Shown here piece after piece: positions 8,220 to 61,675 of a stretch of 64,000 nt of DNA (positions are counted from its first letter, which is position 1; each line of letters opens with the position of its first letter). The translations under genes were made by a program, and so were the position numbers. Source of the stretch: Pseudomonadota bacterium (GTDB taxonomy: Bacteria; Pseudomonadota; Alphaproteobacteria; GCA-2746255); contig JBFMHN010000005.1 in the NCBI GenBank assembly GCA_040752895.1, positions 62,001-126,000 of the forward strand, given 5' to 3'. The notes beneath the pieces are model-generated. The model was given only the letters and a program-made list of their open reading frames with translations, searched no databases and was not told where the DNA came from.

Positions 8220-8627
8220 TCAGGAAAGGTCGATATAGCGCCTCTGCTTGGCCCATTCGGACGGAAGCGGCCCCAGAAGCGCGCCGAGCTGCAATCCAGC
8301 TGGCTGCCTCCCATCAAGGATCGCCTCAACGATGTCCGGGGCCAGCAGGGTCAGGCGCAGAACCCGGCACAGGTAGGACTGGTTGATCTTCTCCGCTTCG
8401 GCCAGTTCGGTCACCGAGGCGAATCGGCCGCTCTCCATGAGGCGCTTCCAGCGGTGGGCCCGGGCGATCGCCTTGATCATGGTGTTGTCGACGCGCGGGC
8501 GCGGCTGGCCCCAACATGCTCCGTCGGGCATCACCACCTGCTTGCGCCCGCCACGCTTCCGGAGGGTCAGAGGCACACGGACCGTCAGCGTGCGCCCGTG
8601 ATCGGTGGTGGCGTCACCGGCTCTCAT
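8220..8627 (-). CDS. Recombinase-associated putative DNA-binding protein
   Basis: A 135-residue protein that overlaps the recombinase stop by an ATGA and is the last gene of the cassette. The central part (HRWKRLMESGRFASVTELA, then EKINQSYLCRVLRLTLLAP) has the helix-turn-helix look of ParB/KorB-type DNA-binding segments, with a basic N-terminus. Small proteins of this type often follow serine recombinases in alphaproteobacterial islands. It may be an accessory or directionality factor for the recombinase, but that is inference; no enzyme motif is visible. Confidence 0.65.
   Translation of the reverse strand: MRAGDATTDHGRTLTVRVPLTLRKRGGRKQVVMPDGACWGQPRPRVDNTMIKAIARAHRWKRLMESGRFASVTELAEAEKINQSYLCRVLRLTLLAPDIVEAILDGRQPAGLQLGALLGPLPSEWAKQRRYIDLS

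Positions 8628-9951: not shown

Positions 9952-9955
<4 letters not shown>
8624..9955 (-). CDS. Large serine recombinase (site-specific integrase/resolvase)
   Basis: A 443-residue serine recombinase. The catalytic domain begins RCAVYTRKST, giving nucleophile Ser23, continues with FNSLDAQREAC and DDGGFSGGTLDRPAL, and has the conserved VVVYKIDRLSRS. It is followed by a recombinase domain (FVPLGYEVRDRKLVIN) and a Zn-ribbon-like part ending in ADACPVGRVPA. The ATG at 9955 is chosen because it overlaps the DUF2924 stop (ATGA) and leads into MTKSPASAKP; the upstream in-frame stretch is inside DUF2924. It probably mobilised this island. It is also the only integrase-like gene in the window, so it could serve the prophage at 16 kb. 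att sites not located. Confidence 0.93.
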
Positions 9956-10400
<445 letters not shown>

Positions 10401-10404
<4 letters not shown>

Positions 10405-10616
10405 GCGTCTCCTTTGCAAATTGGAGTTCCATGACCGCTCCGGTCGGGCGGGAAGTGAAGGCAACTTTCTCCGCGGTCGCCAGATACTTGCCTTGACTGG
10501 CGTGCTTTGAGCCGAACCAGCCCGCGCGCAAGAATCCTGCAGACCTCCCCGATTCGCTCGTCCGGCGTCATATGCCCGGGGTGGATCGGGTTCGGCATGT
10601 CCATCGCAGAGATCAC
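10401..10616 (-). CDS. Small conserved protein at the head of the recombinase cassette
   Basis: A protein of up to 71 residues (alternative starts at 10604 and 10598) containing NPIHPGHMTPDERIGEVCRI. Its TGA overlaps the DUF2924 ATG. Similar short proteins commonly precede DUF2924 in alphaproteobacterial recombinase cassettes. The N-terminal two thirds could form a helix-turn-helix; the C-terminus (PPDRSGHGTP) looks disordered. No function is assigned. Confidence 0.6.
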
Positions 10617-10699
10617 CTAAGGGATTGGATTCCCTTGGCCTCTACTCACGGTGCGGACGATCCGTCCCAAGGCGATGGCTTTTGAATCGACTCCGCTAG

Positions 10700-10733
10700 G
10701 CATTTGCGATAAGAACGTAAGATGAACAAATGC
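10700..10733. promoter_or_regulatory. Inverted repeat upstream of the unknown two-gene operon
   Basis: GCATTTG at 10700-10706 and CAAATGC at 10727-10733 are perfect 7-bp inverted arms separated by 20 bases, 23 bases before the ATG at 10756. The spacing suits a dimeric repressor on an upstream promoter. The winged-helix protein encoded by the second gene is the obvious candidate binder. No unambiguous -35/-10 pair was fixed. Confidence 0.45.
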
Positions 10734-10755
10734 GAGGCAATTATGGGCGGCTGAG

Positions 10756-12003
10756 ATGGCTAAGAACCTGAAGAAATTCGTCAATCCCAAGTTTACCCGA
10801 ACCGTCGACCTCGGCCTGTTGGGCCGCCTGTTCGAGCGCCACAGCGATGCCCTGAACGGGCTGGACCTTGGGGTCTTCAGGGGCGAGGCCGCGCAGGACG
10901 AGGCACGAAGCGCCGTCCAGGATTTCTTCGCGGGGCCGGAAGAGAACTATCCGGAAGGGCTCGTCGCCGACCTGCACCGGATCGCGGAGATCGGCAACGC
11001 GGCAGGCCTCGACATCATCCTTCAGCAGGCCGCACGGCTCGGGATACGCGTGACACCCGAAGCGAAGGGTGACGAGCCGGAGGCTCACCAGGATCCCAAG
11101 CACGTCGCCTTGCGCGTCTTCCTCGAACATCCCGATGTCTTTGACGCCGCGTCGGACATGATGGCGCTCATGGCGCGCACGTCGCTCGCCGAGTTCGTGG
11201 GCCGCGACGAAGGCGTCGAGGCGATCATGGATGATCGCGCAAAGGCCGAGTTTGAAACCGCCGCCGCCGCGATGTTCGAGCAGGATCTCCGCAGCAACTA
11301 TTGCCGCGCCGGCTGGTATGACGATGCCGACGAGCTCGTCCTGGTGATCGAGCACGGATCTCCGATCACCACGACCGATGTCCTGCAAAAGGACCAGAAG
11401 CGCGTAATCAGCTTCCGCGCCGCCGAACACGCGGTGCTGTCCTACAACTCCACGACGGGGCTGTTGAAGATCGGCGGCGTCGCCAAGGCGCGCCGCGCCG
11501 ACCTCGCGGAACTGTTCGCCGGCAAGATTCTGGGCAAGCCCGAATTCTTCGCCGGCGACGACGCGCAGAACCTCTACACGCTCGACCCGGTGCAGCGCGC
11601 GGGCTTCGGCTTCGCGTTCAACCATGACTTCGATCCGGGCATCCATCGGGTCCAGATCACCGAGGTCCAGGTCGACCGCGTCGGCGCCGATCCGAAGACC
11701 GGCGAGACACGAACCTTCTACTCCTATGTTGCGCGCGACGGACGCGACAATGCCCTGGCCAGATTGGGCGAGATGATGCGGGACGCTCGTCTCGGGTCGG
11801 ATTGGCGCCTCAACCACATCGTCATCCGCGTTCATTTTGCGACCGGCGGCAAGTCGGCGAAGAAGGTGACCGTCAAGCTGAAACCGCCGGCACACGCCAT
11901 GTTCAAGCGTCAGCAGTTCGAGGGCCGGATCATGACGCTCCTTCGCCGCAACGGACTGCTCAATGACCGAGACGCTGCCCAGGCTGCTGTTGCGGCTGAG
12001 TGA
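10756..12003 (+). CDS. Unrecognised protein, first gene of a two-gene unit
   Basis: A 415-residue soluble protein with no family that I recognise. It starts MAKNLKKFVNPKFTRTVDL. The N-terminal half (residues 1-170) is mostly helical and acidic; the middle has a beta-rich stretch (DELVLVIEHGSPITT, then VLSYNSTTGLLKIGG); the C-terminal part is basic (VTVKLKPPAHAMFKRQQF). No signal peptide, membrane segment, Walker motif or HxH/DxD nuclease motif is evident. It overlaps the next gene by 41 bases, so the two are surely co-expressed. Position beside a restriction/Septu operon and a recombinase suggests a defence or island-maintenance role, which is inference. Confidence 0.8.
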   Translation: MAKNLKKFVNPKFTRTVDLGLLGRLFERHSDALNGLDLGVFRGEAAQDEARSAVQDFFAGPEENYPEGLVADLHRIAEIGNAAGLDIILQQAARLGIRVTPEAKGDEPEAHQDPKHVALRVFLEHPDVFDAASDMMALMARTSLAEFVGRDEGVEAIMDDRAKAEFETAAAAMFEQDLRSNYCRAGWYDDADELVLVIEHGSPITTTDVLQKDQKRVISFRAAEHAVLSYNSTTGLLKIGGVAKARRADLAELFAGKILGKPEFFAGDDAQNLYTLDPVQRAGFGFAFNHDFDPGIHRVQITEVQVDRVGADPKTGETRTFYSYVARDGRDNALARLGEMMRDARLGSDWRLNHIVIRVHFATGGKSAKKVTVKLKPPAHAMFKRQQFEGRIMTLLRRNGLLNDRDAAQAAVAAE

Positions 12004-12943
12004 GGCGGGCGATCCCGCAATTCTATGGGGCCGACAGGCGGCGCCTCATGCCGGGCGCGATTTCGAGCGGCTGCTCGATCGGGGCGTCCTGGTCGAGCAG
12101 GCGCCGGCAACGGAATGGGATGTGTGCCCAGCCTGTGATTGCGGTCTCGACGCGCGGCTTGTCCAGCAGGTCAATGGGCAACATATCGCGGTTTGCCCGA
12201 CGGACCGGCACAGCGACGTCATTCTCGGCGATGACGACCTGCGGAGCTTTCGGATTCATCCCTCCGCACTGGTCCGCGAAATCGTCATGGCGTCCGGGTT
12301 CGGAGGCGAGCCGACGCCGGTCGCGGCGGGTGTCTGGCATCTGGGGGAAACATCGAATCAGCGGGCGCTGTTCCTCGCACTGTCGCAGGATGCAGTGCTT
12401 CAACCGGGATTGATCGGCCTGATGCGTTCGGTCGCCCGGTCGGTGCCCATCACGGTTATCGCGCCGGCGATGGCTGCGGATGACCAGGCGCGTCTGGTCG
12501 ACGCGGGGCTTCATCTTGTGTCTGGATTGGATTGCATTGCTTGCGATGGAGCGGCATCTGGATTCGCCATCGATCAGTCCAAACTAGAGTCGCGACCGAG
12601 CCTGGCGCCCCGATTGGTAATTCGGCGTACCGCCAAGACCGTATCTCTCGACGGAATGCCGAAGACACTTTCCGACCAAGAGTTTCAGCTCTTGGTCCTT
12701 CTGGCGGAACATGCATTGAAGTCGCCCGCCATCGTCGAGAATCGTGCGATCGAGGCGCACATCTGGGGAGCGAGCATCCATAGGATTTCGTCGCAGGTGC
12801 GCGAGCCCGTGCGCGCGCTTCGGGATGCGCTGGCTCACGGCAGCGCGGATGCCACGTCCGTACGCGCATTGATTGAGAATCGGCGAAATCCAAACGGCTA
12901 TCGATTGGCCATCGAACCGGATGAGATTGCCATTACCGACTAA
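11963..12943 (+). CDS. Zn-site plus winged-helix protein, second gene of the unit
   Basis: A 326-residue protein. Residues about 50-85 have a Cys cluster (CPACDCG, then AVCPTD about 20 residues later) that looks like a zinc site. The central part (residues 110-200) has alternating hydrophobic segments such as VPITVIAPAMAAD. The C-terminal 100 residues (LSDQEFQLLVLLAEHA, HIWG, SSQVREPVRALRDAL, NPNGYRL) match the OmpR/Trans_reg_C winged helix. It therefore probably binds DNA. There is no receiver domain or membrane segment. Translation is coupled to the upstream gene by a 41-base overlap. It may regulate the pair through the inverted repeat at 10700-10733. No known system is recognised. Confidence 0.8.
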   Translation: MTETLPRLLLRLSEAGDPAILWGRQAAPHAGRDFERLLDRGVLVEQAPATEWDVCPACDCGLDARLVQQVNGQHIAVCPTDRHSDVILGDDDLRSFRIHPSALVREIVMASGFGGEPTPVAAGVWHLGETSNQRALFLALSQDAVLQPGLIGLMRSVARSVPITVIAPAMAADDQARLVDAGLHLVSGLDCIACDGAASGFAIDQSKLESRPSLAPRLVIRRTAKTVSLDGMPKTLSDQEFQLLVLLAEHALKSPAIVENRAIEAHIWGASIHRISSQVREPVRALRDALAHGSADATSVRALIENRRNPNGYRLAIEPDEIAITD

Positions 12944-12975: not shown

Positions 12976-13389
12976 TCAGCCCGATAGTGCCTCCAATACC
13001 GGACACTCAGGCACCTGCTCGCCGGAACACTGGGCCGCCGTCGTCGCCAGCACCTTCTCGATTCGCTTCAGGTCGGCAATCTTCGTGCGCACCTCGGCGA
13101 GATGTCGCTCGGTCCGTTCCTTCACCTCCGAGCAGGTATGAGTGCCGCCATCGACAAGCGCGAGCAGGCCGCGGATTTCCTCAATGGAGAAGCCAAGCTC
13201 CCGCGCCCGCAGAATGAAACGCAGCCGCGCCACATGCGTCTCGTCATAGACGCGGTAGCCAGACGCCGTGCGCGGCGGCTCCGGCATCATATCGATCTTC
13301 TCGTAGTAGCGGATTGTTTCCAGGTTGCAGCCCGTACGCCGAGCCAGCGCCGCGCGCTTCAGTACCCTCCCGGTAACGTGATTGGTCAT
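12976..13389 (-). CDS. merR: Mercury-responsive regulator MerR
   Basis: A 137-residue MerR-family regulator that represses and, with Hg(II), activates the divergent mer operon by untwisting its promoter. The N-terminal HTH-wing is NLETIRYYEKIDMM followed by ASGYRVYDE. The three Hg-binding cysteines of MerR are present: Cys in GTHTCSEV, Cys in AAQCSG and Cys in VPECPVL, at MerR spacing along the dimerisation helix. Start 13389 (MTNHVTGRVLKRA) lies 15 bases from the promoter; the longer in-frame reading would run into merT and is rejected. It converges with the gene ending at 12943. Confidence 0.95.
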   Translation of the reverse strand: MTNHVTGRVLKRAALARRTGCNLETIRYYEKIDMMPEPPRTASGYRVYDETHVARLRFILRARELGFSIEEIRGLLALVDGGTHTCSEVKERTERHLAEVRTKIADLKRIEKVLATTAAQCSGEQVPECPVLEALSG

Positions 13390-13403
13390 GTCATCGATAA
13401 TCC

Positions 13404-13434
13404 TTGAGCCTGTAGTCACTACAGACCTTATCTT
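13404..13434 (+). promoter_or_regulatory. merT promoter and MerR operator
   Basis: TTGAGC (-35, 13404-13409) and TATCTT (-10, 13429-13434) are separated by 19 bases, the overlong spacer typical of MerR-activated promoters. Inside the spacer is a perfect dyad CTGTAGT-C-ACTACAG (13410-13424). It lies between merR and merT, drives merTPFA, and should also autoregulate merR. Known MerR promoters share this exact layout. Confidence 0.9.
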
Positions 13435-13465
13435 CAAATCAGAACGAAGGCGAGGACCACGACGC

Positions 13466-13861
13466 ATGAACTCAACGCGAACGGAAACCCAGGCGCTGCA
13501 AGGCGACAGCGAGGCGAACAACCGGAGAGGCTGGTTCGCCGCTGGCGGCGTCATCGGCGGCGTCCTGGCCTCGACCTGCTGCATCGCGCCGCTGGTGCTG
13601 CTGACGCTGGGAATCTCTGGCGCCTGGATCGGCACGCTCACGGCGCTGGAGCCCTACAAGCCGTACTTCGCCGTCGTGGCGCTCATCTTCATTGGGCTTG
13701 GCTTCCGGCAAGTCTACTTCAAGGCGAAGCGTGTCTGCGTGGACGGCTCCTACTGCGCCAAACCCCAATCCGCTCTCATCACCAAGACCGCTCTCTGGAT
13801 CGCGACCGTGTTGGTCGTTCTAGCGCTGACGATCGACTGGTGGGCGCCGTTTTTCTACTAA
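13466..13861 (+). CDS. merT: Mercuric transport protein MerT
   Basis: A 131-residue inner-membrane importer that passes Hg(II) from MerP to cytosolic MerA. The first membrane helix carries the vicinal pair in STCCIAPLVLLTLGISG and a cytoplasmic loop has a second pair, CVDGSYC; a third helix ends the protein (ALWIATVLVVLALTIDWW). The start at 13466 (MNSTRTETQ) is the first ATG after the promoter; upstream in-frame codons overlap the promoter itself. It is the first gene of merTPFA. Confidence 0.95.
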   Translation: MNSTRTETQALQGDSEANNRRGWFAAGGVIGGVLASTCCIAPLVLLTLGISGAWIGTLTALEPYKPYFAVVALIFIGLGFRQVYFKAKRVCVDGSYCAKPQSALITKTALWIATVLVVLALTIDWWAPFFY

Positions 13862-13873
13862 GGAGAATCCGAC

Positions 13874-14206
13874 ATGAAACGACCACTTATCCTCGCCGCC
13901 ACACTGCTTGCCGTGGGCGGGCTCGGCGCTCTGGGCCTGACGGCGATCCCATCCGTTTCCGCTCAAACCGCAGCCATTCAGATCGCCGCCGCACAATCGG
14001 CGACATTCGCGGTGGAGAACATGACCTGCGCGCTCTGCCCGGTCACGGTGAAAAAGGCCATGGAGAAGGTGACCGGCGTGCAGTCGGTTCAGATCGATTT
14101 CGCCGCCAGAACGGCGACCGTCGTCTTCGACCCGGCCGTGACGTCCGTTGAAGCCATAGCCGCCGCTTCGGCCGACGCAGGCTATCCGGCGGAGGTCAGA
14201 GGCTGA
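13874..14206 (+). CDS. merP: Periplasmic mercury-binding protein MerP
   Basis: A 110-residue secreted HMA-domain protein. A signal peptide (residues 1-30, ending SVSAQ) precedes the metal site ENMTCALCPVTVKKAM, whose MTCxxC pair binds Hg(II) and hands it to MerT. The remainder is a standard beta-alpha-beta HMA fold ending in ADAGYPAEV. It begins 12 bases after merT with an AGGAG site. Complete and typical. Confidence 0.95.
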   Translation: MKRPLILAATLLAVGGLGALGLTAIPSVSAQTAAIQIAAAQSATFAVENMTCALCPVTVKKAMEKVTGVQSVQIDFAARTATVVFDPAVTSVEAIAAASADAGYPAEVRG

Positions 14207-14210
14207 ACTG

Positions 14211-14459
14211 ATGAAGGATGCGACCATCGTCAAAACGGGCATCGTCGGCTCTGTCATCGCCGCCATCTGCTGCGCAACGCCGGTTCTAGTGATCGCGCTT
14301 GGCGCTGTCGGGCTGTCCGCCTGGCTCGGCTGGATCGATTATGTGCTGCTGCCAACGCTCGCAGTCTTTCTGGCCATGACGGTTTATGGACTCTGGCAGA
14401 GGCAACGTGCGGCAGCCTGTTGCGCAAACGAAACGCAAACCACCAAGGAAAGCGCCTGA
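14211..14459 (+). CDS. merF: Mercury transporter MerF
   Basis: An 82-residue two-helix membrane protein. The first helix has the vicinal cysteines AAICCATPVLVIALGAVG, the second helix is IDYVLLPTLAVFLAMTVYG, and the tail ends with a second pair AACCANE. This is the MerF pattern; it supplies an additional Hg(II) import route to MerA. It starts four bases after merP and ends one base before merA, so all are in one transcript. Confidence 0.9.
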   Translation: MKDATIVKTGIVGSVIAAICCATPVLVIALGAVGLSAWLGWIDYVLLPTLAVFLAMTVYGLWQRQRAAACCANETQTTKESA

Positions 14460-14460
14460 C

Positions 14461-15888
14461 ATGGCCGATTGCTGCACGACTGACGGAAAGAAGAACACCT
14501 ACGACCTCGCCGTCATCGGTGCGGGCTCGGCAGGCTTTTCAGCGGCCATCACTGCGGCTGAGCACGGGGCGAGCGTCGCCCTGATCGGCCACGGCACCAT
14601 CGGCGGGACCTGCGTCAATGTCGGCTGCGTGCCGTCGAAGACCATGATCCGCGCCGCCGAGGCTCTGCACGGCGCGCGGGCGGCGGGGCGGTTTCCGGGG
14701 ATTTCCGGCGAAGCAACAGTGAACGACTGGCGCAGCCTGATCGCCGCCAAGGACGACCTCGTCTCGACGCTGCGGCAGAAGAAGTACGCCGACCTGCTGC
14801 CCGAGTACGACGGGATTACCTATTTGGAGGGCGCGGCGCGATTGAACGGCGCCGGCGTCCTCGTCGAAGGCGGCCCTGTCGCCGCCGACAAGATCATCAT
14901 CGCCACGGGCGGACGACCTGCCGTGCCGCCGATTCCCGGCATCGAGACCGTGGCCTACCTGACCAGCACGACACTGCTGGAACTGGAGAAGCTGCCCAGG
15001 AGCCTGATCGTCATCGGCGGCGGGTATATCGGCGCGGAGCTTGCCCAGATGATGGCGCGCATGGGCGTTGCGGTCACCGTCGTCTGTCGCTCCCGTCTGT
15101 TGCCGCAGGTGGAGCCAGAAGTCTCCGACGCGCTGGCTGCGGCCTTTCGCGCCGAAGGCATCACGCTCCATTGCGGCATCACCTACGATGCCTGCCGCGA
15201 GGATGAAACCGGCGTCACGGTGTGCGTCGAGGAGGACGGCGATCTCGTCGAACTGACGGCGGAGCGCCTTCTGGTGGCGACGGGCCGCGCCCCCAACACC
15301 GAGCAGCTCGGCATCAAGGAGGCGGGTATCGAGCAGGACCGCCGCGGCGCCGTCGTCGTCGATGATCACATGCGCACGTCCCGGCCGGGCGTCTACGCCG
15401 CGGGCGACGTGACGAACCGCGACCAGTTCGTCTACATGGCCGCTTTTGGGGCAAAGTTGGCTGCCCTCAATGCTCTCAACGGCGACAGCTTGCGTTACGA
15501 CAATGCCGCCATGCCCTGGGTGGTATTTACTGATCCTCAGGTGGCGGGGGTCGGCCTCGGCGAGGTCGCGGCCAGAGAAGCGGGCTTTGAGGTCAAGACC
15601 TTGGTCCTCCCGCTCGACCAGGTGCCGCGTGCGCTGGCCGCCCGCGACACACGCGGGCTCATCAAGCTGGTGGCAGATGCGAAGAGCGACCGCTTGCTCG
15701 GCGGCCAGATCCTTGCACCCGAGGGCGCAGACAGCATTCAGACGCTGGCCATGGCGGTCAAGTTCGGCATGACCGCAAAGGCACTGGGCGAGACGATCTT
15801 CCCGTACCTGACCACGGTCGAGGGGCTGAAGCTCGCTGCCCAGACCTTCGATAAGGATGTAGCCAAGCTTTCCTGCTGTGCCGGGTGA
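14461..15888 (+). CDS. merA: Mercuric reductase MerA (short form without NmerA domain)
   Basis: A 475-residue FAD/NADPH-dependent reductase of Hg(II) to volatile Hg(0). FAD binding is at AVIGAGSAGFSAA, the redox-active pair is GGTCVNVGCVPSK (Cys51, Cys56), NADPH binding is at VIGGGYIGAELA, and the C-terminal substrate pair is KLSCCAG (Cys472, Cys473). The N-terminal HMA (NmerA) found in longer forms is missing; instead the protein begins MADCCTTDG, with a Cys pair at residues 4-5. The ATG at 14461 directly follows merF. A broken second copy of the C-terminal third lies at 62900-63370. Confidence 0.96.
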   Translation: MADCCTTDGKKNTYDLAVIGAGSAGFSAAITAAEHGASVALIGHGTIGGTCVNVGCVPSKTMIRAAEALHGARAAGRFPGISGEATVNDWRSLIAAKDDLVSTLRQKKYADLLPEYDGITYLEGAARLNGAGVLVEGGPVAADKIIIATGGRPAVPPIPGIETVAYLTSTTLLELEKLPRSLIVIGGGYIGAELAQMMARMGVAVTVVCRSRLLPQVEPEVSDALAAAFRAEGITLHCGITYDACREDETGVTVCVEEDGDLVELTAERLLVATGRAPNTEQLGIKEAGIEQDRRGAVVVDDHMRTSRPGVYAAGDVTNRDQFVYMAAFGAKLAALNALNGDSLRYDNAAMPWVVFTDPQVAGVGLGEVAAREAGFEVKTLVLPLDQVPRALAARDTRGLIKLVADAKSDRLLGGQILAPEGADSIQTLAMAVKFGMTAKALGETIFPYLTTVEGLKLAAQTFDKDVAKLSCCAG

Positions 15889-15924: not shown

Positions 15925-16008
15925 ATTGATGCGTCGAGTCATCGAGATAGGCCGCACCTGACGCAGCCAACAAACCCACATTCTACCCACGTACTCCCCA
16001 CGCCCCGC

Positions 16009-16021
16009 ACACCTATCGGAT
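16009..16021. repeat. Short repeat right of mer (copy 2)
   Basis: ACACCTATCGGAT, one mismatch from the copy at 12961-12973. It lies in the leader before the first prophage gene, between merA and the sigma-like factor. Confidence 0.25.
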
Positions 16022-16075
16022 CGGCGGCTTCGGCAGGCTTGAGGTCATCAACAGCGATGACCCGAGGCCATACCG

Positions 16076-16651
16076 ATGCACTCTTCGATTTCCCGAGACG
16101 ACCTTCAGATCCTTCTTCATGAGGCGGACATTGCCGCCCGCCGTCTGGTGCGCCAGCTGCGGCTTCCCCGTGCTGATCTCGACGATGTCCGCCAGGACCT
16201 GCTTGTCGACCTGATCGCGCGTCTTCCCGCCTACGACGCTGATCGCGGCACGCTCGGCGCCTTTGCCGGCGCCATCCTCGCCAACAGGGCGACGCGCATC
16301 GCCAACAAGGTGAAGCGGGAGCGCCGGATGTATGGCGCGACGCCGATCTCGCTCGATGAGGTCATTCCCGAGAGCGACGGGCTGACCCGCGGCGACCTCA
16401 TCGCCGAAGCCGACGGGCTGTCAGCACTCTTCGGCCAGCCCGTCGATGTATTCGCCACCGCCGAGGAGCGTCTCGATGTCGAGCGCGGTCTTGGCTCGCT
16501 CGAACCCGCAGACGGCGCTCTCTGCGCAGCCCTTTCCCGCACCACCGTCGATCGCCTCGCCGCGAGCGGGCATGGCGCCCGCAGCAGCCTCTACCGCCGC
16601 GTCAAGGACATCCGCCTCGCCCTGACGGCGATCGGCGTCCGGGCCGCGTGA
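16076..16651 (+). CDS. Phage-encoded sigma-70-like factor
   Basis: A 191-residue protein with a sigma region-2-like segment (LDDVRQDLLVDLIARLPAYD, then GTLGAFAGAILANRATRI) and a C-terminal segment (ARSSLYRRVKDIRLALTAIG) that could be region 4. Such sigma-like proteins open the early region of many alphaproteobacterial prophages and may direct RNA polymerase to phage promoters. It is the leftmost gene of the prophage; the following genes run in the same direction. Whether it is an active sigma factor cannot be told. Confidence 0.75.
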   Translation: MHSSISRDDLQILLHEADIAARRLVRQLRLPRADLDDVRQDLLVDLIARLPAYDADRGTLGAFAGAILANRATRIANKVKRERRMYGATPISLDEVIPESDGLTRGDLIAEADGLSALFGQPVDVFATAEERLDVERGLGSLEPADGALCAALSRTTVDRLAASGHGARSSLYRRVKDIRLALTAIGVRAA

Positions 16652-16685
16652 GACGGTTCGGCGAGCGCGTGAGTAGGAGCCCATC

Positions 16686-34682: not shown

Positions 34683-34976
34683 TCAGGCCGCTCTGGGATG
34701 AACCCTCGCCTCGATTTCGGGGCCAACTTGGTCGCGCGCCAATTCGAGGTCGTAGGTCGCCTGCATGCCCATCCAGAGTTCCGGGCTGGTCCCGAAGTAG
34801 CGCGCAAGCCTGAGCGCCGTGTCGGGCGTGATGGCCCGCTTGGCGTTGACGATCTCGCTGATCCGGATCTGCGGCACGTCGATTGCCTTGGCGAGTGCGT
34901 ACTGGCTCATGCCGAGCGGCTTGAGAAAGTCCTCGCGTAGAACCTCACCGGGATGGGTTGGGGCAAAATCAGCCAT
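34683..34976 (-). CDS. higA: HigA-type antitoxin
   Basis: A 97-residue XRE-family antitoxin: HPGEVLREDFLKPLGMSQYA followed by VPQIRISEIVNAKRAITPDT and RYFGTSPELWMGMQ, the standard HigA core. It starts 11 bases after the higB stop with a GAGGAG site. It neutralises HigB and represses the promoter to its right. The cassette runs opposite to the surrounding phage head genes. Confidence 0.92.
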   Translation of the reverse strand: MADFAPTHPGEVLREDFLKPLGMSQYALAKAIDVPQIRISEIVNAKRAITPDTALRLARYFGTSPELWMGMQATYDLELARDQVGPEIEARVHPRAA

Positions 34977-34987
34977 GGGTTTTCTCC

Positions 34988-35269
34988 TCAATGATAATCG
35001 ACGATCTCAACGTCATGGGCGTCACCGTCCTGCCAGACAAAGCATACGCGCCATTGGTCGTTGATCCGGATGCTGTGCTGGCCTTTTCGGTCTCCAGTTA
35101 GAGCCTCGAGGCGATTGCCCGGTGGCGCCCTGAGGTCTTCGAGAGTTCGGGCGTTGTGGAGTTGCATCAGCTTTCGGTTCGCGACCTTCACGATGTCGTT
35201 TGGGACGCCCTTGATGAAGCGGCGAGCCCAGGCGGCCTCTGCCGCAGCGTTCCGAAACGACTTGATCAT
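34988..35269 (-). CDS. higB: HigB-type toxin (RelE superfamily)
   Basis: A 93-residue ribosome-dependent mRNA interferase: MIKSFRNAAAEAAW, AYLLL-less core LEDLRAPPGNRLEALTG, and HSIRINDQWRVCFVW with the C-terminal HDVEIVDYH. This is the HigB pattern. The start at 35269 is ATG; an in-frame TTG two codons earlier is less likely. Toxin-first order is normal for higBA. Confidence 0.92.
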   Translation of the reverse strand: MIKSFRNAAAEAAWARRFIKGVPNDIVKVANRKLMQLHNARTLEDLRAPPGNRLEALTGDRKGQHSIRINDQWRVCFVWQDGDAHDVEIVDYH

Positions 35270-35277
35270 ACCCAATA

Positions 35278-53117: not shown

Positions 53118-55451
53118 TCAGAGGTCTATCTGCCGGAGCCGCAGGGCGTTGGTGATCACCGAAACGGAGGACAGACTCATTGCCGCCGCCGCGATCATCG
53201 GCGACAGCAACATCCCGGTGACCGGGTAAAGAAGCCCCGCCGCGACCGGCACGCCGAGCGCGTTGTAGGCGAAGGCGAAAAACAGGTTCTGCCTGATGTT
53301 ACGCAAGGTGGCGCGCGCTAGCTTGCGCGCGCGGACAATGCCCATCAGGTCGCCGCCCAGCAGGGTGATGCCCGCGCTTTCCATCGCCACATCGGCCCCG
53401 GTTCCCATGGCGATGCCGACATCGGCGGCGGCCAGCGCGGGCGCATCGTTCACCCCGTCGCCCGCCATCGCGATCTTGTGGCCATCGCGGCGCAACTGGT
53501 CGATCAGGTCTTTCTTGCCCTCGGGCAGGATGCCCGCGCGCACCTCGTCGATGCCGAGCTTGCCCGCCACTGCCTGCGCCGTGCGCTCGTTGTCACCCGT
53601 CGCCATGATGACGCGCAGCCCTTGGGCGTGAAGTTCCTTGATCGCTTCCGCGGTGCTGTCCTTGATTGGGTCGGCCACCGCCACGATGCCGGCAAGCGCG
53701 CCGTCGACCGACACGAACATGGCCGTCTTGCCCTCGACGCGCAGAGCGTCGGCCTTAGCTTCGGCCGCTGCCGTGTCCAGACCCATCTCCCGCATCATCG
53801 CGGCATTGCCGAGCGCCACCTCGCGTTCGCCAACCTTGCCACGTACGCCCTTGCCGGTGACGGCGTCAAAGTCCTTGGCCTCCTGACGCGGGGCGTCATG
53901 CGCCTCGGCGCCCTCGACGATCGCCTCTGCCAGGGGGTGTTCAGAGCCGCGCTCCAGGGCCGCAGCCAGCGACAGCAGGTCAATCTCAGTGACCTCCCCA
54001 AGCGCCACGGTGTCGGTCAGCTTCGGCTTGCCCATGGTCAGGGTGCCGGTCTTGTCCACGATGAGCGTATCGACACCCGCCATACGCTCCAGCGCCTCGG
54101 CGTCCTTGATCAGCACGCCCGCCTGTGCGCCTCGCCCCGCTGCCGTGGTGATGGAGATCGGCGTCGCCAACCCCAGAGCGCAGGGGCAGGCAATGATGAG
54201 GACTGAAACGGCGGATGCTATGGCGAAGACTAGCGCGGGTTCCGGGCCGAAGATCATCCAGACGATGAAGGCTATGATGGCGATGACGACCACGGTTGGC
54301 ACGAAGACCGCCGACACGCGGTCGGCCAGCCCCTGGATCGGCGCGCGGGACCGCCGCGCCTTCGACACCATCGAGACGATCTGCGCCAGCACGGTATCGG
54401 ACCCGACCTTGCCGGCCTCGATCACCAGAGAGCCGTTCTTGTTGATCGTGGCGCCGGTCACCGCATCCCCCGGACCTTTCTCAACCGGCATCGACTCGCC
54501 GGTCAGCATGCTTTCATCCAGCGAGGATCGCCCCTCGATCACCGTCCCGTCGACAGGGACAGCATCGCCCGGGCGCACGCGAAGCCGATCGCCCTCCATG
54601 ATGTTTTCCAGCGGAGCGTCGTATTCGCTGCCGTCCGGCAGAATGCGCCGCGCGGTTTTCGGCGCGAGGTCCAGAAGTGCGCGGATCGCATCCCCGGTGC
54701 GTTCGCGCGCGCGCAGTTCGAGAACCTGGCCGACGAAGACCAGCGCCACGATCACGACCGCCGCCTCGAAGTAGGTGCCGACGCCGTGGCCCATCCGATA
54801 CTCTTCGGGAAACACACCCGGCAGGAAGGTGGCGACGATCGAGTAGAGGTATGCCGCCGCCACACCGATGCTGATCAGCGTCCACATGTTGGGGCTGCGG
54901 TTCACGACCGAATCCCAGCCGCGCCGGAAGAATGGAAGCGCCGCCCAGAGGATGATCGGCGTGGCGAGCACGAACTCGAGGTAGCTGGCCATCTGGTGCC
55001 CGATCCAGTCGCGTACCGGCAGCGCCACCAGTTCGCCCATGGTCAGGATGATGAGCGGTACTGCGGCAGCCGCTGAGATCCACATCCGGCGAGTGAAATC
55101 CGTCAGCTCTTCACTTGGCTCGTCCGAAGGCACCATCGGTTCCAGCGCCATGCCGCAGATCGGGCATGAACCCGGCGCATCGCGCACGATTTCGGGATGC
55201 ATCGGGCAAGTGTACCGGACGTTGGCCGGGGCTGCCTTCTTTTGACTGGCCGCGCGGCCTGAGGCATAGAACCAAGGATCGGCCTTGAACTTCGTGTGGC
55301 ATTTCTCCGAGCAGAAATGGAAGGTCTTGCCCTGGAACTCGGCGCGACGTCCGTCCGGCTTGATCGCGACCGTCATCCCGCAAACCGGGTCCGTTGCAGT
55401 GTTCGCTCCCGCCGGTATGTCGGGCGCTGCGTGATGATGATCGTGCTCCAT
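53118..55451 (-). CDS. Copper-translocating P1B-type ATPase with YHS domain
   Basis: A 777-residue inner-membrane exporter. Order: a His-rich start ([12 protein letters not shown]), YHS domain about 20-65 ([20 protein letters not shown]), heavy-metal-binding domain about 80-108 ([19 protein letters not shown]), then eight membrane helices with TGES near 316, CPC in [13 protein letters not shown] near 420, DKTGT near 465, the HP locus in SEHPLAEA and GDGVNDAP near 665. CPC with MSxxS-type end ([15 protein letters not shown]) indicates Cu(I). It pumps copper to the periplasm for CopA. Confidence 0.95.
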
Positions 55452-55516
55452 GGTCTGCCAGCCTTTCGGTAATTCGTTTCAGCTTGCGGCGTCCACTCGT
55501 TGGAAGCTCAAGCACT

Positions 55517-56824
55517 TTAATGGTGGTCGTGCGCACCTTCGGGGGCAGGATTGCGCGCGAGGAAAACACGCTCGAACACGAACACCGCCATCATGCCTAC
55601 AATGGCAAGTACGACAATCAGCGGATCGGTCTGCCACTTCATTGCCGCAAAGGCCGCCAGAACCACCGTGTCTAGCGCGATCGCGGTCAGCAACACCCCG
55701 CCGCGTGCTCCGATGTCCTTGCGGAGCGTCCGATAGACGCCCCAGTGAATAATGATGTCCATTACGAGATAGAAGAATGCGCCGAGCGAGGCGATCCGGC
55801 TAAGGTCGAAGAACACTGTCAGGAAGCCGGCGATGACGACGGTGTAGACGAGCGTGTGGTCCTTGATCGCGCCCGACATGCCAAAGTGGCTGTGCGGGAT
55901 CATCTTCATGTCCGTCAACATGGCCAACATGCGAGAGACCGCGAAGACGCTCGCAATCAGGCCAGAAGCAGTCGCCACGACGGCAAGAGCCACCGTCAGG
56001 TAAAAGCCGGTTTGCCCGAGCGCCGGCTCGGCCGCCTCGGCCAGGGCATAGTCCTTGGCCTCCACGATTCTATCGAGCGGCAGGCTCGATCCGACGGCGA
56101 ACGCGACGAGCAGATAAACGACAACGCAGATCGCAATGGAAAAGACGATGGCCCGACCCACGTTGCGGTGCGGATTCGTGACCTCCGCTCCGCTGTTGGT
56201 GATCGTCGTGAACCCCTTGAAGGCAAGAATCGACAGCGCCACCGAGGCGATGAAACCGCCTTCACCCGTGTCCCCACCCGTCGCCTCGAAGGAAATGCCG
56301 CTGGCCCAGAGGCCTGCCGCGCCGAACAACGCGATGCCGCCGACCTTGAGCACAGCCATGAGGATGGACAACAGCCCGACCGATCGGTTGCCCGAGACGT
56401 TGACGAGATAGGCGAAGACGATGAGCCCGACTCCTAGCAAGGGAACCAGGAAGCTGTCCGGGTCGGCGCCGAAACCGCGCAACACGTAGGTGCCGAACGT
56501 CCGGGCGACGAGGCTTTCGTTGATGACCATCGAAAGCGCCATCAGCAGCGCCGCACCCGCCGCAACTGTCGTCGGCCCGTAGGCTTTCTTCAGGATCATC
56601 CCGATGCCGCCTGCCGACGGATAAGCGTTCGACATCTTGATGTAGGTGTAGGCGCTGAACGCGGTCACGACCGCGCCGACAACGAATGACAGCGGAAAGA
56701 GCGGTCCGGCCAGTTGCGCAATCTGTCCCGTAAGCGCGAAGATCCCCGCACCGATCATGACGCCGGTGCCCATAGCCACCGCTCCGGAAAGGCTGATGCT
56801 CTCTTTCTGGTATTCTTCTGTCAT
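55517..56824 (-). CDS. APC-superfamily amino-acid permease
   Basis: A 435-residue membrane transporter with about 12 helices; the first has the family motif GTGVMIGAGIFALTGQIA. The start at 56824 (MTEEYQKES) is chosen because it matches the usual N-terminus and is downstream of an A/T-rich leader. Its substrate is unknown. In copper islands of this kind an APC permease is often next to the P-type ATPase; the reason is not known. The end has a His-rich tail (EGAHDHH). Confidence 0.88.
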   Translation of the reverse strand: MTEEYQKESISLSGAVAMGTGVMIGAGIFALTGQIAQLAGPLFPLSFVVGAVVTAFSAYTYIKMSNAYPSAGGIGMILKKAYGPTTVAAGAALLMALSMVINESLVARTFGTYVLRGFGADPDSFLVPLLGVGLIVFAYLVNVSGNRSVGLLSILMAVLKVGGIALFGAAGLWASGISFEATGGDTGEGGFIASVALSILAFKGFTTITNSGAEVTNPHRNVGRAIVFSIAICVVVYLLVAFAVGSSLPLDRIVEAKDYALAEAAEPALGQTGFYLTVALAVVATASGLIASVFAVSRMLAMLTDMKMIPHSHFGMSGAIKDHTLVYTVVIAGFLTVFFDLSRIASLGAFFYLVMDIIIHWGVYRTLRKDIGARGGVLLTAIALDTVVLAAFAAMKWQTDPLIVVLAIVGMMAVFVFERVFLARNPAPEGAHDHH

Positions 56825-56912
56825 CGGCGACCCATACTCTTTGCACAGATTTCTCTTATCGGACAATCCCTTCGCACGTCGTTGGTCAGGCGAATTTTAG
56901 GGTTCCTCTTAG

Positions 56913-57460
56913 TTAGTGAACGTGAACGTCTGTCATAACGCGCGCATTCACAAGATCGAGTTCAAGATCGAAGACGTCCCCCGTTTCGAGCTTATTGCGT
57001 AGAGGAGACAGCTCATACCAAAGGTGCGAAGTCGTGGATCGAGTACTTCCCCTGCAGGCACGCTGATCGATTGGAGTTCAGTGGTGTCCGAGGCTCCGAT
57101 TCGGGCGATGAGTCTTGAGTTTTCGGCGATCCGGGAACTCACCCCCAATAGCACGACGGTTGTGCCGCTTTCGTTTACCAGTCGGAACCGAACTTCCGTC
57201 GAACTTCCTGCAGGACCGCTTGTGGCATAGGCGGTCTCGACCTGGACCTGGTCCCCCAACGACAGCGTCGGGGCGTCGGCATAGACACTTTCAAGGCCCG
57301 CAAGAAGGTTGAGAGAAACGGTAGCGACCAACACTCTGAGGACCTGTCCCAGCCGCCGCTTGCCGGGTCGCGCACCATCCAGTGTTGGACTAACCTCCGT
57401 CGATGGAGACGGAGGGGCGCACTTTAGGCGCCCCTCCTGCTCTGTTCGGGCCACGGACAT
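56913..57460 (-). pseudogene. Secreted PCu(A)C-like protein, frameshifted near the C-terminus
   Basis: The frame from 57460 reads a signal sequence (RVLVATVSLNLLAGLESVYA) and a beta domain (EVRFRLVNESGTTVVLLGV) up to about VPAGEVLD; after that it turns to non-typical sequence and stops at 56948. One frame away, starting near SHLWYELSPLRNKLETG, a sensible C-terminus (DVFDLELDLVNARV) continues to a stop at 56913. A one-base change near 57035 is the simplest reading. The fold resembles PCu(A)C chaperones, but the Met/His copper ligands are not evident. Call is tentative. Confidence 0.55.
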
Positions 57461-57903
57461 CAGGAACGCCCGACCTGTCCGAGCAGCAATTCGAGCCGCT
57501 GGCGTGCCTTAGGCGGAAGCTTTGCGATGCTCGCGCGCGCTGCCTCCGGCACCTCGACCTCGCCTACGACGATGATGCCGACCATGCCGAGCCCGACATG
57601 GGGCGTGCATTTCACGCCGTAGATGCCGGGCTTGTCGAAGGTGACCGATACCTCCTTGTTGAAGCCGACATTGATCGACTGATCGGCGCCGGTGCCAAAC
57701 CCGCCGATGGAGACGGCATTGTGGCCTTTGTCGATGGGGACGAAGACGACCGTATCGCCCGGCGATACCCGGATGAAATCCGGCTCATAGACGAACCGCT
57801 CGCTTCCAGACTGATTGCGCATCTCCATGCGCACTTCGTCAGCCGCCGCCGGAGTACCGAGCAGCAGTATGGTGGCGAAAGCGAATAAACTTCTTGGCAG
57901 CAT
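57460..57903 (-). CDS. Pseudoazurin-type blue copper protein
   Basis: A 147-residue periplasmic cupredoxin. Signal peptide at residues 1-21 (LFAFATILLLGTPAAA). Type-1 copper ligands are His in DKGHNAVS, then Cys and His in GVKCTPHVGLGM and its Met. The C-terminal helix pair (EAARASIAKLPPKARQRLEL) is pseudoazurin-like. It could carry electrons or buffer copper beside CopA and CopB. Confidence 0.92.
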   Translation of the reverse strand: MLPRSLFAFATILLLGTPAAADEVRMEMRNQSGSERFVYEPDFIRVSPGDTVVFVPIDKGHNAVSIGGFGTGADQSINVGFNKEVSVTFDKPGIYGVKCTPHVGLGMVGIIVVGEVEVPEAARASIAKLPPKARQRLELLLGQVGRS

Positions 57904-57917
57904 ACCAATCTCCTGCT

Positions 57918-58655
57918 TCAGAACCAGAAACGAATGCCAGTGACGAAAGAAAGGGTGTCGATATCCTCTCCTTCATCCTGCGCAATGTCAGCCGTCTCGC
58001 CGATCTTTCGCTCCCAACTTATGCCGATATAGGGCGCGAACTTCCGCTCGATTTCATAGCGGAGGCGAAGCCCGAGTTCGACATCGTTGATGCCGGAGCC
58101 GATGCCCCTCTCCCGGACGCTTTGGACTGCAAAGTTGACCTCTGTCGTTGGCTGCAGGATCAGCTTTTGTGTGATCAGGAGGTCGTACTCGGCCTCGAAA
58201 CGAGCCGAAACCTCGCCTTCGTTGCTGACGAACGCGGAGGCATCGATTTCGAACCAATAAGGGGCCAGTCCCTGCAGGGCGAAGACGCCGAATCCCCGTT
58301 CGGGGCCGGGTTCGATGTCGTAGCGTACACCCGCCTGCGCATCGAAGAAGTCGGAGATCCGGCGGCTGTAGAGGAGCTGGATCTCTCCCTTCTCCAGTCG
58401 TCCATCCGTCGGTTTCTCGCCTTCGGTTTTGAGCCAGGCCTTGTGGTCGTCGTTCCCGATCCAGCCCTGGGCATCCCAGTTGAGACTGTCGTGCCCATCG
58501 TTAGCCCTGTATTCGAATTGCTCGGCCTGAAAGAAGGTGAACAGCTGACCGGGCTCGGCGGACTGGGCCGGGCCGAACAGGAACACGGCGGGGAGAAAAC
58601 CGGCAAGGAACGCAAGTTCCTGCCGAGAATTGTATCGTGCAATCATCGATTTCAT
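57918..58655 (-). CDS. copB: Copper resistance outer-membrane protein CopB
   Basis: A 245-residue beta-barrel protein with a signal peptide ending GPAQSA and alternating strands (IQLLYSRRISDFFDAQAGVR, LAPYWFEIDASAFVSNEGEV) closing in the C-terminal Phe (GIRFWF). Shorter than many CopB because the Met/His-rich N-terminal part is missing. It follows copA with a nine-base gap. It may sequester copper or export it across the outer membrane. Confidence 0.92.
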   Translation of the reverse strand: MKSMIARYNSRQELAFLAGFLPAVFLFGPAQSAEPGQLFTFFQAEQFEYRANDGHDSLNWDAQGWIGNDDHKAWLKTEGEKPTDGRLEKGEIQLLYSRRISDFFDAQAGVRYDIEPGPERGFGVFALQGLAPYWFEIDASAFVSNEGEVSARFEAEYDLLITQKLILQPTTEVNFAVQSVRERGIGSGINDVELGLRLRYEIERKFAPYIGISWERKIGETADIAQDEGEDIDTLSFVTGIRFWF

Positions 58656-58664
58656 CGTTCTGCC

Positions 58665-60410
58665 TCACGCGCTTTTCGGCTCGACGATGAAACGCGTCAT
58701 CATCCCAGCTTCCATGTGATAGATAAGGTGGCAATGGAACGGCCAGTCGCCCGGCTCGTTCGCCGTCAACACCGCAGAGACGGTCTTGCCGGGAGGTACC
58801 ACGACAACGTGCTTGCGCGGCTTCCTGTCGGTCTGGCCGTTCTCCAGTTCGACAAACATGCCGTGCAGGTGCATTGGGTGCGCCATCATCGTCGTGTTGA
58901 CGAACTTCAAGCGCACCCGGTCCCCGTAGGCCACACGGATCGGCTCGTCCTTCCCGAAGGGACGGCCGTTCAGGTTCCACATGTACCGTTCCATGATGCC
59001 TGTCAGCCGCACTTCGATCTCGTGATTCGGTTCACGGCCGTCCGGGTTCGGGGTCGACGCTTTCAGATCCGCGTAGTCCAGAGCCTTCGCCCCCGGCGGC
59101 GTGCTTGCGTCGGCCCAACCGAAGGGGCGGCGTTCTCCTCCCTCCGCCGCGGCTCCGCCATGACCCATGGCGCCGTGGTCCATGCCAGCCATGGGAGCCC
59201 CGCCCATCTTGCTATGGTCCATGCCAGCCATCGCGCCACCGGACATGGCGCCGCCCGCCATCGAGCCATGATCCATCCCCGTCATCGAACCGTGGTCCAT
59301 GCCACCGTGTGCCATGCCCATGTCCGCCATGCTGAGGATCGTGCGCGGTCGCTGTTCGGGGATAGCAGCCTCCATACCCTCACGCGGCGCCAGCGTCGCC
59401 CGGGCATAGCCCGAACGATCGATCGGCTCTGCGAAGATCGTGAACGCCTTGTCATCGCGTGGAAGCACGATGACGTCGTATGTCTCGCCGACGCCAAAGC
59501 GGAACTCGTCGACCCGAACCGGCTGGACATTCTGCCCATCGGCCGAGAACACGGTCATGGGAAGGCCCGGTATGCGGACGTCGAAGAAGCTCATGGCGGA
59601 TGCGTTGATGAATCTGAGGCGGACACGCTCACCGGGCTTGAAAAGAGCGGTCCAGTTGTCTTTCGGTCCACGGCCATTGATCAGGAAGGTGTAGCCGGTG
59701 ACATCCGCGAGGTCGGTCGGGTCCATCCGCATGTCGCCCCAGTCGAGGCGGTCCTTCAGAGCGGTATTGAACCCGTCGCGGTTTGCGTCCCGAAAGAAAT
59801 CGATGAGGGTTCGTTTCCCGTAATTGTAGTACCCGGCATCGGCCTTCAGGTTGGACAGCACGCGCATCGGGTCTTCTTGGGTATGGTCGGAGAGGACCAC
59901 GACATAGTCGCGGTTCGCCCGTACCGGTTCGCGTCCGGAGGGCTCGATGACGATGGCGCCGTACATGCCCTGCTGCTCCTGCATCGCGGAGTGGCTGTGG
60001 TACCAATAGGTACCGGCCTGGCGCAGCTTGAAGCGGTAGGTGTAGGTCTCGCCGGGCTGGATGGCGACATAGCCGTTGAAGCCGGGTGCGCCGTCCATGA
60101 CGCCTTCAATGAGGAGGCCGTGCCAGTGGATGGACGTGGGCACATCCAGACGATTGGTCGCATAGACCACGACCTCGTCGCCCTCGCGCCACCGCATCGT
60201 CGGCGCCGGCACGGAGCCGCCCATCAGTATGGCGTTGCTGCCAATCCCGTCGACGGCGATGCGACCGGCATCGACGTTCAGCGTGTACTCCTTCGTCGAA
60301 GAGGCGAAGCTGCGGCGGCCGGGATAGACCGCGAGGGTGCCGGCCAAGCCCGCCGCTCCGGCGAGTTTGAGTGCGTCTCGTCGGGAGACGCCGGAGATTG
60401 GTTTGTTCAT
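58665..60410 (-). CDS. copA: Periplasmic multicopper oxidase CopA
   Basis: A 581-residue Cu(I) oxidase exported by the Tat system (SRRDALKLAGAAG). All four copper motifs are seen: HWHG near residue 93, HSH near 136, HPMHLHG near 512 and HCHLIYHMEAGM near 560. A Met/His-rich segment about 360-418 (MDHGSMTGMDHGSMAGG) binds extra copper. The start at 60410 is right before the Tat signal, with GGAGGAG upstream; the longer frame runs through the upstream gene. Detoxifies copper with CopB and the cupredoxin. Confidence 0.96.
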   Translation of the reverse strand: MNKPISGVSRRDALKLAGAAGLAGTLAVYPGRRSFASSTKEYTLNVDAGRIAVDGIGSNAILMGGSVPAPTMRWREGDEVVVYATNRLDVPTSIHWHGLLIEGVMDGAPGFNGYVAIQPGETYTYRFKLRQAGTYWYHSHSAMQEQQGMYGAIVIEPSGREPVRANRDYVVVLSDHTQEDPMRVLSNLKADAGYYNYGKRTLIDFFRDANRDGFNTALKDRLDWGDMRMDPTDLADVTGYTFLINGRGPKDNWTALFKPGERVRLRFINASAMSFFDVRIPGLPMTVFSADGQNVQPVRVDEFRFGVGETYDVIVLPRDDKAFTIFAEPIDRSGYARATLAPREGMEAAIPEQRPRTILSMADMGMAHGGMDHGSMTGMDHGSMAGGAMSGGAMAGMDHSKMGGAPMAGMDHGAMGHGGAAAEGGERRPFGWADASTPPGAKALDYADLKASTPNPDGREPNHEIEVRLTGIMERYMWNLNGRPFGKDEPIRVAYGDRVRLKFVNTTMMAHPMHLHGMFVELENGQTDRKPRKHVVVVPPGKTVSAVLTANEPGDWPFHCHLIYHMEAGMMTRFIVEPKSA

Positions 60411-60426
60411 CGTCTGCTCCTCCCGT

Positions 60427-60981
60427 TCACTTCGTAAAGTTGATGGGGCCGGCCATACCGGACTCGTAGTGACCCGGGATGTTGCAGGCGAACTCCAGTT
60501 CAGTCGGCTGCGTAAATTTCCAGACCAGTTCGGCCGTCTTGCCGGGCTCAACCAATACGCTATTGGGGTCGTCATGCTTCATATCGCCCATGTTCATGCC
60601 GCCCATCTTTGAATGGTCCATCTTCGACATGTCATGGTTCATGCCCGTCGGCGTCAGCATGCCGTGTTCCATCATCATCGCCATTTCTTCTTGGTGCTTG
60701 GCGTGCATGGCGGCGGTACCGATGTTGAACTCGTGAAGCAGCTCGCCCTTGTTCACGAGCACGAAGCGGACGATCTCGCCCGGCTTCACGGTCAGACTTT
60801 CGGGTTCGTACAGATTGTCGCGCATAGTGATCGTCACGGTGCGCGTCGCCTGCTCGGCCTTGGCGGCCTCGCCGAATGCCAGGCTATGACCGGGAGATGC
60901 GAAAGCGGCGCTCGTGGCGGCGATCGTCGTGAGGCCGGCGAGCAAAGAGATGCGGAGAAGGTTCGGGAGCGTCTTCGACAT
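60427..60981 (-). CDS. Plastocyanin/CopI-like cupredoxin
   Basis: A 184-residue secreted cupredoxin: signal residues 1-28 (ISLLAGLTTIAATSAAFA), a beta sandwich with GELLHEFNIGT and the Cu ligands in FACNIPGHYESGM, and an inserted Met/His-rich loop (MDHSKMGGMNMGDMKHDD). It is the first gene of the minus-strand copper operon. The region upstream (60982-61217) has no gene and must hold the promoter. Confidence 0.92.
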   Translation of the reverse strand: MSKTLPNLLRISLLAGLTTIAATSAAFASPGHSLAFGEAAKAEQATRTVTITMRDNLYEPESLTVKPGEIVRFVLVNKGELLHEFNIGTAAMHAKHQEEMAMMMEHGMLTPTGMNHDMSKMDHSKMGGMNMGDMKHDDPNSVLVEPGKTAELVWKFTQPTELEFACNIPGHYESGMAGPINFTK

Positions 60982-61217
60982 TTTGCGAATCCTGTTTGTC
61001 ACATTGATGAGAGTGTCGAGGCTGTTTGAGGACACAGACCTCCAGCGGCCGGGAGCAAAACCTCCGGCGGGCGTGACAAGCGAATTGGAAGGGAGACGGG
61101 ACGTGCGATAGTGCACTTCCGGACCTGCCGCGCCCGAACGAGCGCAGATCTTAAGTCAGCAGGAACGCGAAGTTCTCGATGTCCGAATCCCGCCCGAGCA
61201 GGGCAGCCGCGCGGAGA

Positions 61218-61598
61218 TCAGACGCGAGCGCGGGGAGGACGGAAAAGGCCGTCCGGGGCATTCGAGCCGGCGAACCGGTCTACATGAACACCCAGCCGTA
61301 TCCCGGAAAAGGTGATGACGGCGACTTCCGCAATGGCGGCGACGATAACAGTCGGAGAGCAAGCGACGACGCAGCAGTTTCCAAGGGTCCCGTGCGTCGC
61401 GGGCTGCCCTTGGTCCTGCTGTGCTGCGGTTTCGCCGCAATCCTCCACTTGCGAGACGCGCGCATGACAGTCGTCCGCATGGGGCGATGTGGTCTCGACC
61501 GGATGGTCATGGGGACCTGATGCGGGCATGGAGTGGCCAATGCCGACGCTCGCCATGAGAAATGCCACAGCGACGAGTGCGCCTAATAGGCGCCTCAT
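61218..61598 (-). CDS. Small secreted Cys/His protein (unknown)
   Basis: A 126-residue protein with a signal peptide (LLGALVAVAFLMASVGIGHS), a His/Asp loop (GPHDHPVETTSPHADDCHAR) and Cys motifs (EDCGETA, NCCVVACSP), ending with a hydrophobic segment. Start 61598 is an ATG; an in-frame ATG 33 bases upstream is also possible. It looks like a periplasmic metal-binding or membrane-anchored protein of the copper cluster. No family recognised. Confidence 0.65.
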   Translation of the reverse strand: MRRLLGALVAVAFLMASVGIGHSMPASGPHDHPVETTSPHADDCHARVSQVEDCGETAAQQDQGQPATHGTLGNCCVVACSPTVIVAAIAEVAVITFSGIRLGVHVDRFAGSNAPDGLFRPPRARV

Positions 61599-61675
61599 AC
61601 CATCACTCAGCGTGAAGAAGGTACTTCCCATGGAGCTTGGCTAGCATGATGCTTCTGGCAGGTCAACGGTTCTAC

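Follow-up and report, generated by a model that had tools for sequence, protein, structure and literature searches.

Are two overlapping genes, lying between a recombinase gene and a mercury-resistance cluster in an alphaproteobacterial genome, part of a new anti-phage defence system, or do they serve some other element? The question is raised by a stretch of 64,000 nucleotides (hereafter the window), in which the initial annotation had singled out the genes here called A and B as an unrecognised two-gene unit in a defence island. Both open reading frames were confirmed, on the same strand and with an overlap of 41 nt:

10756-12003, plus strand: gene A, 415 aa, of no known family, with a fold that weakly resembles RdgC, RexA and CENP-N
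11963-12943, plus strand: gene B, 326 aa, with a winged-helix-like and cysteine-containing (zinc) part, a receiver-like domain and an OmpR/PhoB-type winged helix

The description of A as a protein without a known family holds, in that no Pfam, NCBIfam or PADLOC match was obtained, and the zinc-site and winged-helix character given to B is borne out by an invariant cysteine cluster and a C-terminal winged helix. Relatives of A were found at ten bacterial genome loci and at more than 100 loci on viral contigs, with 40-98% identity among the related loci and a nearly constant length of 410-416 aa, and B follows A at all related loci whose sequence reaches that far. Collections of plasmid and phage records gave no homologue of A, and plasmid records gave none of B. 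Only three of 385 genomes drawn from the class matched A, one of them marginally, and A is therefore not a housekeeping gene. One locus (L014) that had been considered as a distant A-B pair was rejected, as it holds an ordinary pair of sensor kinase and response regulator.

The setting of the pair was addressed through its neighbours. The flanks are real, with the recombinase to the left and mer to the right, and the region in which A and B lie contains the following:

8220-52560: whole prophage, with integrase, A-B-SIG, replication, terminase, portal, protease, capsid, tape measure, tail and endolysin genes
8220-8627, minus strand: P136, a small integrase-operon protein (phrog_14161, E 1.5e-44), marking the left boundary of the conserved phage region
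8624-10063, minus strand: serine integrase (Resolvase, Recombinase and Zn_ribbon_recom domains)
9952-10464, minus strand: DUF2924 protein (E 6.4e-52), the partner gene of the integrase
16076-16651, plus strand: SIG, a sigma-like gene of 191 aa and the proposed target of B (Pfam Sigma70_r2, E 1.5e-4, just under the cut-off), syntenic in relatives

The order P136, integrase and DUF2924, followed by A, B, SIG and the replication genes, is kept in about 150 related loci, the first three genes being on one strand and the remainder on the other. After SIG the relatives carry a small unknown gene, an AAA_24 (Sak4-like) ATPase, an unknown gene, a helicase and a primase, and in the window the replication genes are followed downstream by genes for a terminase, portal, head protease, major capsid protein, tape measure, tail protein and endolysin. 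The gene order in the relatives and these structural genes together identify the region as a prophage; judged from its sequence, the setting of A and B is a complete prophage of siphophage type and not a free-standing defence island. It extends from about 8.2 to 52.6 kb. Several IMG/VR viral contigs have their start at the P136 gene, about 2.5 kb to the left of A, and the right end was placed by our own reading of spanin-like ORFs. Direct repeats were sought at the prophage ends as att sites, and none was longer than 11 bp. Prophages with serine recombinases have been listed in silico for Paracoccus (PMC6536676).

This setting bears directly on the proposal that A and B are an effector and a DNA-binding sensor that make up a new, stand-alone anti-phage system. 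In its favour, A is of no known family and type I restriction genes do lie nearby, to the left of the integrase; these genes, however, are outside the prophage, beyond the integrase, and absent from the set shared by the relatives. No match to a defence family, including those of PADLOC, was obtained, and the neighbourhood comparison placed the pair with integrase and replication genes, in the phage backbone, rather than with defence genes. We therefore regard a stand-alone defence system as highly improbable. The accompanying suggestion of island control came close, as the evidence favours a lysis-lysogeny control pair under LexA, one that belongs to a prophage backbone.

A link to defence nearby is nevertheless real, for the slot between B and SIG is a cargo site. 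In most relatives it is short, at about 110-150 nt, and 46 of the 148 loci have other cargo in it; in the window it is filled by mercury resistance:

12976-15888: mer genes (merR, merA and mer transport genes), lying in the cargo slot after B and before the repeat array

The appearance of a defence island is thus explained by a prophage with a cargo slot. In the relatives the cargo includes GmrSD-type, PDC-S68, PDC-S36, HNH and Beta-protein defence candidates. Slots with defence candidates, a phosphoesterase and AAA_27 pair among them, were noted at L062, L065, L071, L075, L078, L080 and L083.

How, then, is the pair controlled? An inverted repeat upstream of A (GCATTTG...CAAATGC, 7 bp, 10700-10733) had been pointed out as shared by the two genes; it is present but is not conserved in relatives (for example at L004, L005 and L022). 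The part inside it that is conserved is a direct repeat:

10713-10727, plus strand: LexA/SOS box GAAC-N7-GAAC (GAACGTAAGATGAAC), conserved before A and found likewise upstream of lexA and recA in the host

Among 99 loci with distinct upstream sequence, which are related and so are not independent events, GAAC-N7-GAAC stands 31-53 nt before A in 93, as against 0.4 expected by shuffling, and in most of the remaining six it is one base off. The box is kept while its flanks diverge. A perfect copy lies 74 nt upstream of host lexA and another 147 nt upstream of host recA, and the LexA box of Caulobacter is GTTC-N7-GTTC (PMC9578287, PMC4211646). Because the GAAC repeats are 11 bp apart, binding by an OmpR-type protein is conceivable in principle, but they do not vary along with the winged helix of B; the box is unchanged across all types of B, that of locus L054 included, and the region upstream of A has no site specific to B type. 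A simple scan gave no sigma-70 consensus promoter near the box or near the repeat array before SIG. From the position and conservation of the box, A and B are very probably under SOS control.

The product of the second gene was modelled with a mean pLDDT of 85.8. The model begins with a winged-helix-like part at the N terminus, followed by a Cys-rich part, an alpha/beta domain and an OmpR-type winged helix. Within the cysteine cluster C55, C58 and C78 are invariant, and C60 is also invariant in the closer set. Taken alone, B of the window matches Trans_reg_C at its C terminus with an E of 1.1e-4, below the Pfam cut-off, and beyond this sub-threshold match nothing was found in Pfam, NCBIfam or PADLOC; among 49 members of the B family, however, the Pfam Trans_reg_C winged helix is found in 26, at best with an E of 5.8e-11. 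Profile searches of the PDB with B returned PhoB/OmpR-type regulators, to an E of 2.8e-7, as did Foldseek, and the C-terminal domain of B is an OmpR/PhoB-type winged helix. B is also like the OmpR/PhoB response regulators in the receiver-like domain that precedes this helix and in the 11-bp direct repeats proposed as its target, but differs from them in its extra N-terminal winged-helix-like and Cys-rich part and in the lack of the phospho-acceptor Asp. When B is aligned to a true response regulator, the match spans the second half of the receiver together with the winged helix, and by our reading of this alignment the receiver-like domain of B has no Asp at the phospho-acceptor place; B was for this reason not classed as a phosphorylated response regulator.

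The direct repeats in question lie on the far side of the cargo slot, before SIG:

15975-16018, plus strand: four tandem direct repeats with a period of 11 bp (CCCAC, CCCAC, CCCAC, CACAC), the proposed binding array of B
16043-16062, plus strand: inverted repeat GGTCATC-N6-GATGACC, just before SIG, found with altered arms in most of the relatives

Averaged over 103 loci, the repeat score before SIG is 18.9 at period 11, compared with 13.9-14.9 at the other periods from 7 to 15, and nowhere else in the window is there a second array with at least 17/20 matches to CCCAC. No consensus RNA fold was predicted before SIG, for the inverted repeat or otherwise. The half-sites vary by phage, being mostly CCCAC, else CCCAT, CCCAG or CACAC, and GAGGA in L054. 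In the nearest relatives residues 1-165 of B are 75-95% identical to those of the window, and the winged helix is either of the window type (86-93% identity) or of a swapped type (31-37%); where it is swapped, the rest of B stays at about 90% identity (78-95% over residues 1-165), the array goes from CCCAC to repeats containing CCCAT, and in L054 the GAGGA repeats accompany a very divergent winged helix. Half-site distance is correlated with winged-helix distance when A distance is given (partial r 0.28, permutation p 0.001; without L054 0.20, p 0.001), and is not correlated with A distance when the winged helix is given (p 0.81). The joint change of winged helix and array could partly be linkage, since the two lie close together on the DNA. 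The period-11 geometry and the case of L054, as patterns in sequence, favour direct recognition of the array by B over linkage alone, and B is likely to bind it. For SIG itself, with its near-threshold Sigma70_r2 match, we lean towards a role as a sigma factor.

Does B then switch SIG on or off? It could be the lysogeny repressor, which would hold SIG off through the array, while SOS control would be a feedback that re-establishes or times repression and the winged helix would define immunity groups. Phage immunity regions typically swap the DNA-binding domain together with the operator, which is the pattern seen here; the array is placed right before SIG, and in the scanned genes we recognised no further obvious CI-like repressor. 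On the other hand, DNA damage is not expected to switch on a repressor of lytic genes, and PhoB-type activators are the usual users of tandem 11-bp direct repeats. We accordingly consider B unlikely to be a repressor, and its activation of SIG, as suggested by the arrangement of box and array, to be reasonably probable. In the window B must act from a distance, because mer separates it from SIG by 3.1 kb.

The first gene of the pair is less readily placed. Its structure model is of moderate quality (mean pLDDT 73.7), and the best matches in the PDB by Foldseek are E. coli RdgC (E 4e-4, TM about 0.3-0.4), CENP-N/Chl4, Iml3 and RnlA, with lambda RexA retrieved weakly; several of the best matches among viral structures are phage RdgC proteins. 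All of these matches to PDB and phage proteins have a TM of 0.4 or lower and 7-13% identity. A profile comparison with RdgC gave an hhalign probability of 0.1%, and because this sequence-profile relation to RdgC fails, A is assigned neither to RdgC nor to RexA; no RdgC was found in 41 genomes of the host's relatives. RexA, RdgC, IML3 and CHL4 have been grouped in one DNA-binding fold, and in the same work RexA was reported to bias lambda to the lytic state and RdgC to lower the RecA-dependent cleavage of LexA (PMC11077077). It is suggestive that the structures retrieved with the model of A are much the same set as this fold group. A role for A like that of RdgC or RexA can be put forward tentatively at most.

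The same structural matches raise another possibility, namely that A and B form an SOS-inducible unit of superinfection exclusion or abortive infection, in which A would be the RexA-like effector and would be regulated by B. In lambda, RexA serves in phage exclusion (PMC11077077), the model of A retrieves it together with RdgC, CENP-N/Chl4, Iml3 and RnlA, and the neighbouring slot of relatives holds defence genes. The pair is, however, backbone throughout and not variable cargo, and the proposed array of B lies before SIG and not before A, so that we think an exclusion unit improbable.

The reading that we prefer is that A and B constitute the first lytic-side operon of a serine-integrase prophage, repressed by host LexA, and that B activates SIG; on the sequence evidence this is probable. 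The prophage setting, the conserved gene order, the SOS box, the array, the domain types and the joint change of winged helix and repeats are observed, and from them we infer binding by LexA and by B, activation as opposed to repression, the sigma function and the whole of the action of A. In the lysogen, host LexA would sit on the GAAC-N7-GAAC box before A. Upon DNA damage RecA would bring about the cleavage of LexA, and A and B would be expressed. B, which has no phospho-acceptor Asp, would bind the four 11-bp repeats through its OmpR-type winged helix and so turn on SIG, and SIG would open the early (replication) operon. A would be a DNA-binding helper, possibly RexA- or RdgC-like, acting to stabilise the choice of lysis or to moderate RecA.

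Prophage induction operons under LexA control are known, examples being those of Tum in 186, AntC in N15 and the antirepressors GfoA/GftA in Gifsy, and in the Gifsy and 186 operons the switch function is paired with a RecA-modulating, DinI-like protein (PMC3121763). Like these, A and B lie in a prophage as an operon behind a LexA box of the host type, and they fit the group by position and by box. They differ from it in that the putative switch protein is of OmpR type and has its own array before SIG, and in that its partner is a 415-aa protein of no known family. A second comparison is with phage GIL01, where host LexA and gp7 together keep the lytic genes repressed (PMC4551915). The likeness here is that host LexA would itself be the prophage repressor, whereas GIL01 is a non-integrating linear Bacillus phage with another LexA box and a LexA co-factor.

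If correct, this reading would give a large family of alphaproteobacterial prophages, whose control genes were previously unannotated, a lysis-lysogeny circuit that can be tested and that links the host SOS response to a phage activator and a sigma-like gene. As DNA-binding domain and repeats change together, they would form a natural set of specificity variants. A stronger version, in which host LexA is the sole repressor, the phage has none of its own, and an Asp-less activator signals to a phage sigma factor through an exchangeable pair of winged helix and array, seems doubtful to us; if true, the swapped pairs would serve related phages as a code of immunity or wiring.

The A-B-SIG segment is also bracketed by a second type of DNA element:

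10643-10669, plus strand: bipartite motif TACTCA-N14-CGTCCCA, upstream of A, with exact spacing
16649-16675, minus strand: second, inverted copy of the same bipartite motif, overlapping the stop codon of SIG

These are the only two copies in the 64-kb window. In the relatives the consensus is TACTCA-N14-CGTCYCA, and both copies are present in 104 of 146 loci and the copy at the end of SIG in 130. The motif is kept as a DNA element, because the reading frame of SIG relative to it differs between groups.

Three further observations concern the body and surroundings of the prophage. Between the portal and head protease genes, at 34683-35275 on the minus strand, the translations show two small genes that resemble a HigBA-type toxin-antitoxin pair. 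Directly to the right of the prophage, at 53118-61631, a copper-type P-type ATPase and other metal-related genes were recognised, likewise by reading of translations. Elsewhere on the same contig, a stretch (G000:C5:182597-182875, L183) is 70% identical to the spanin end of the prophage and perhaps belongs to another prophage.
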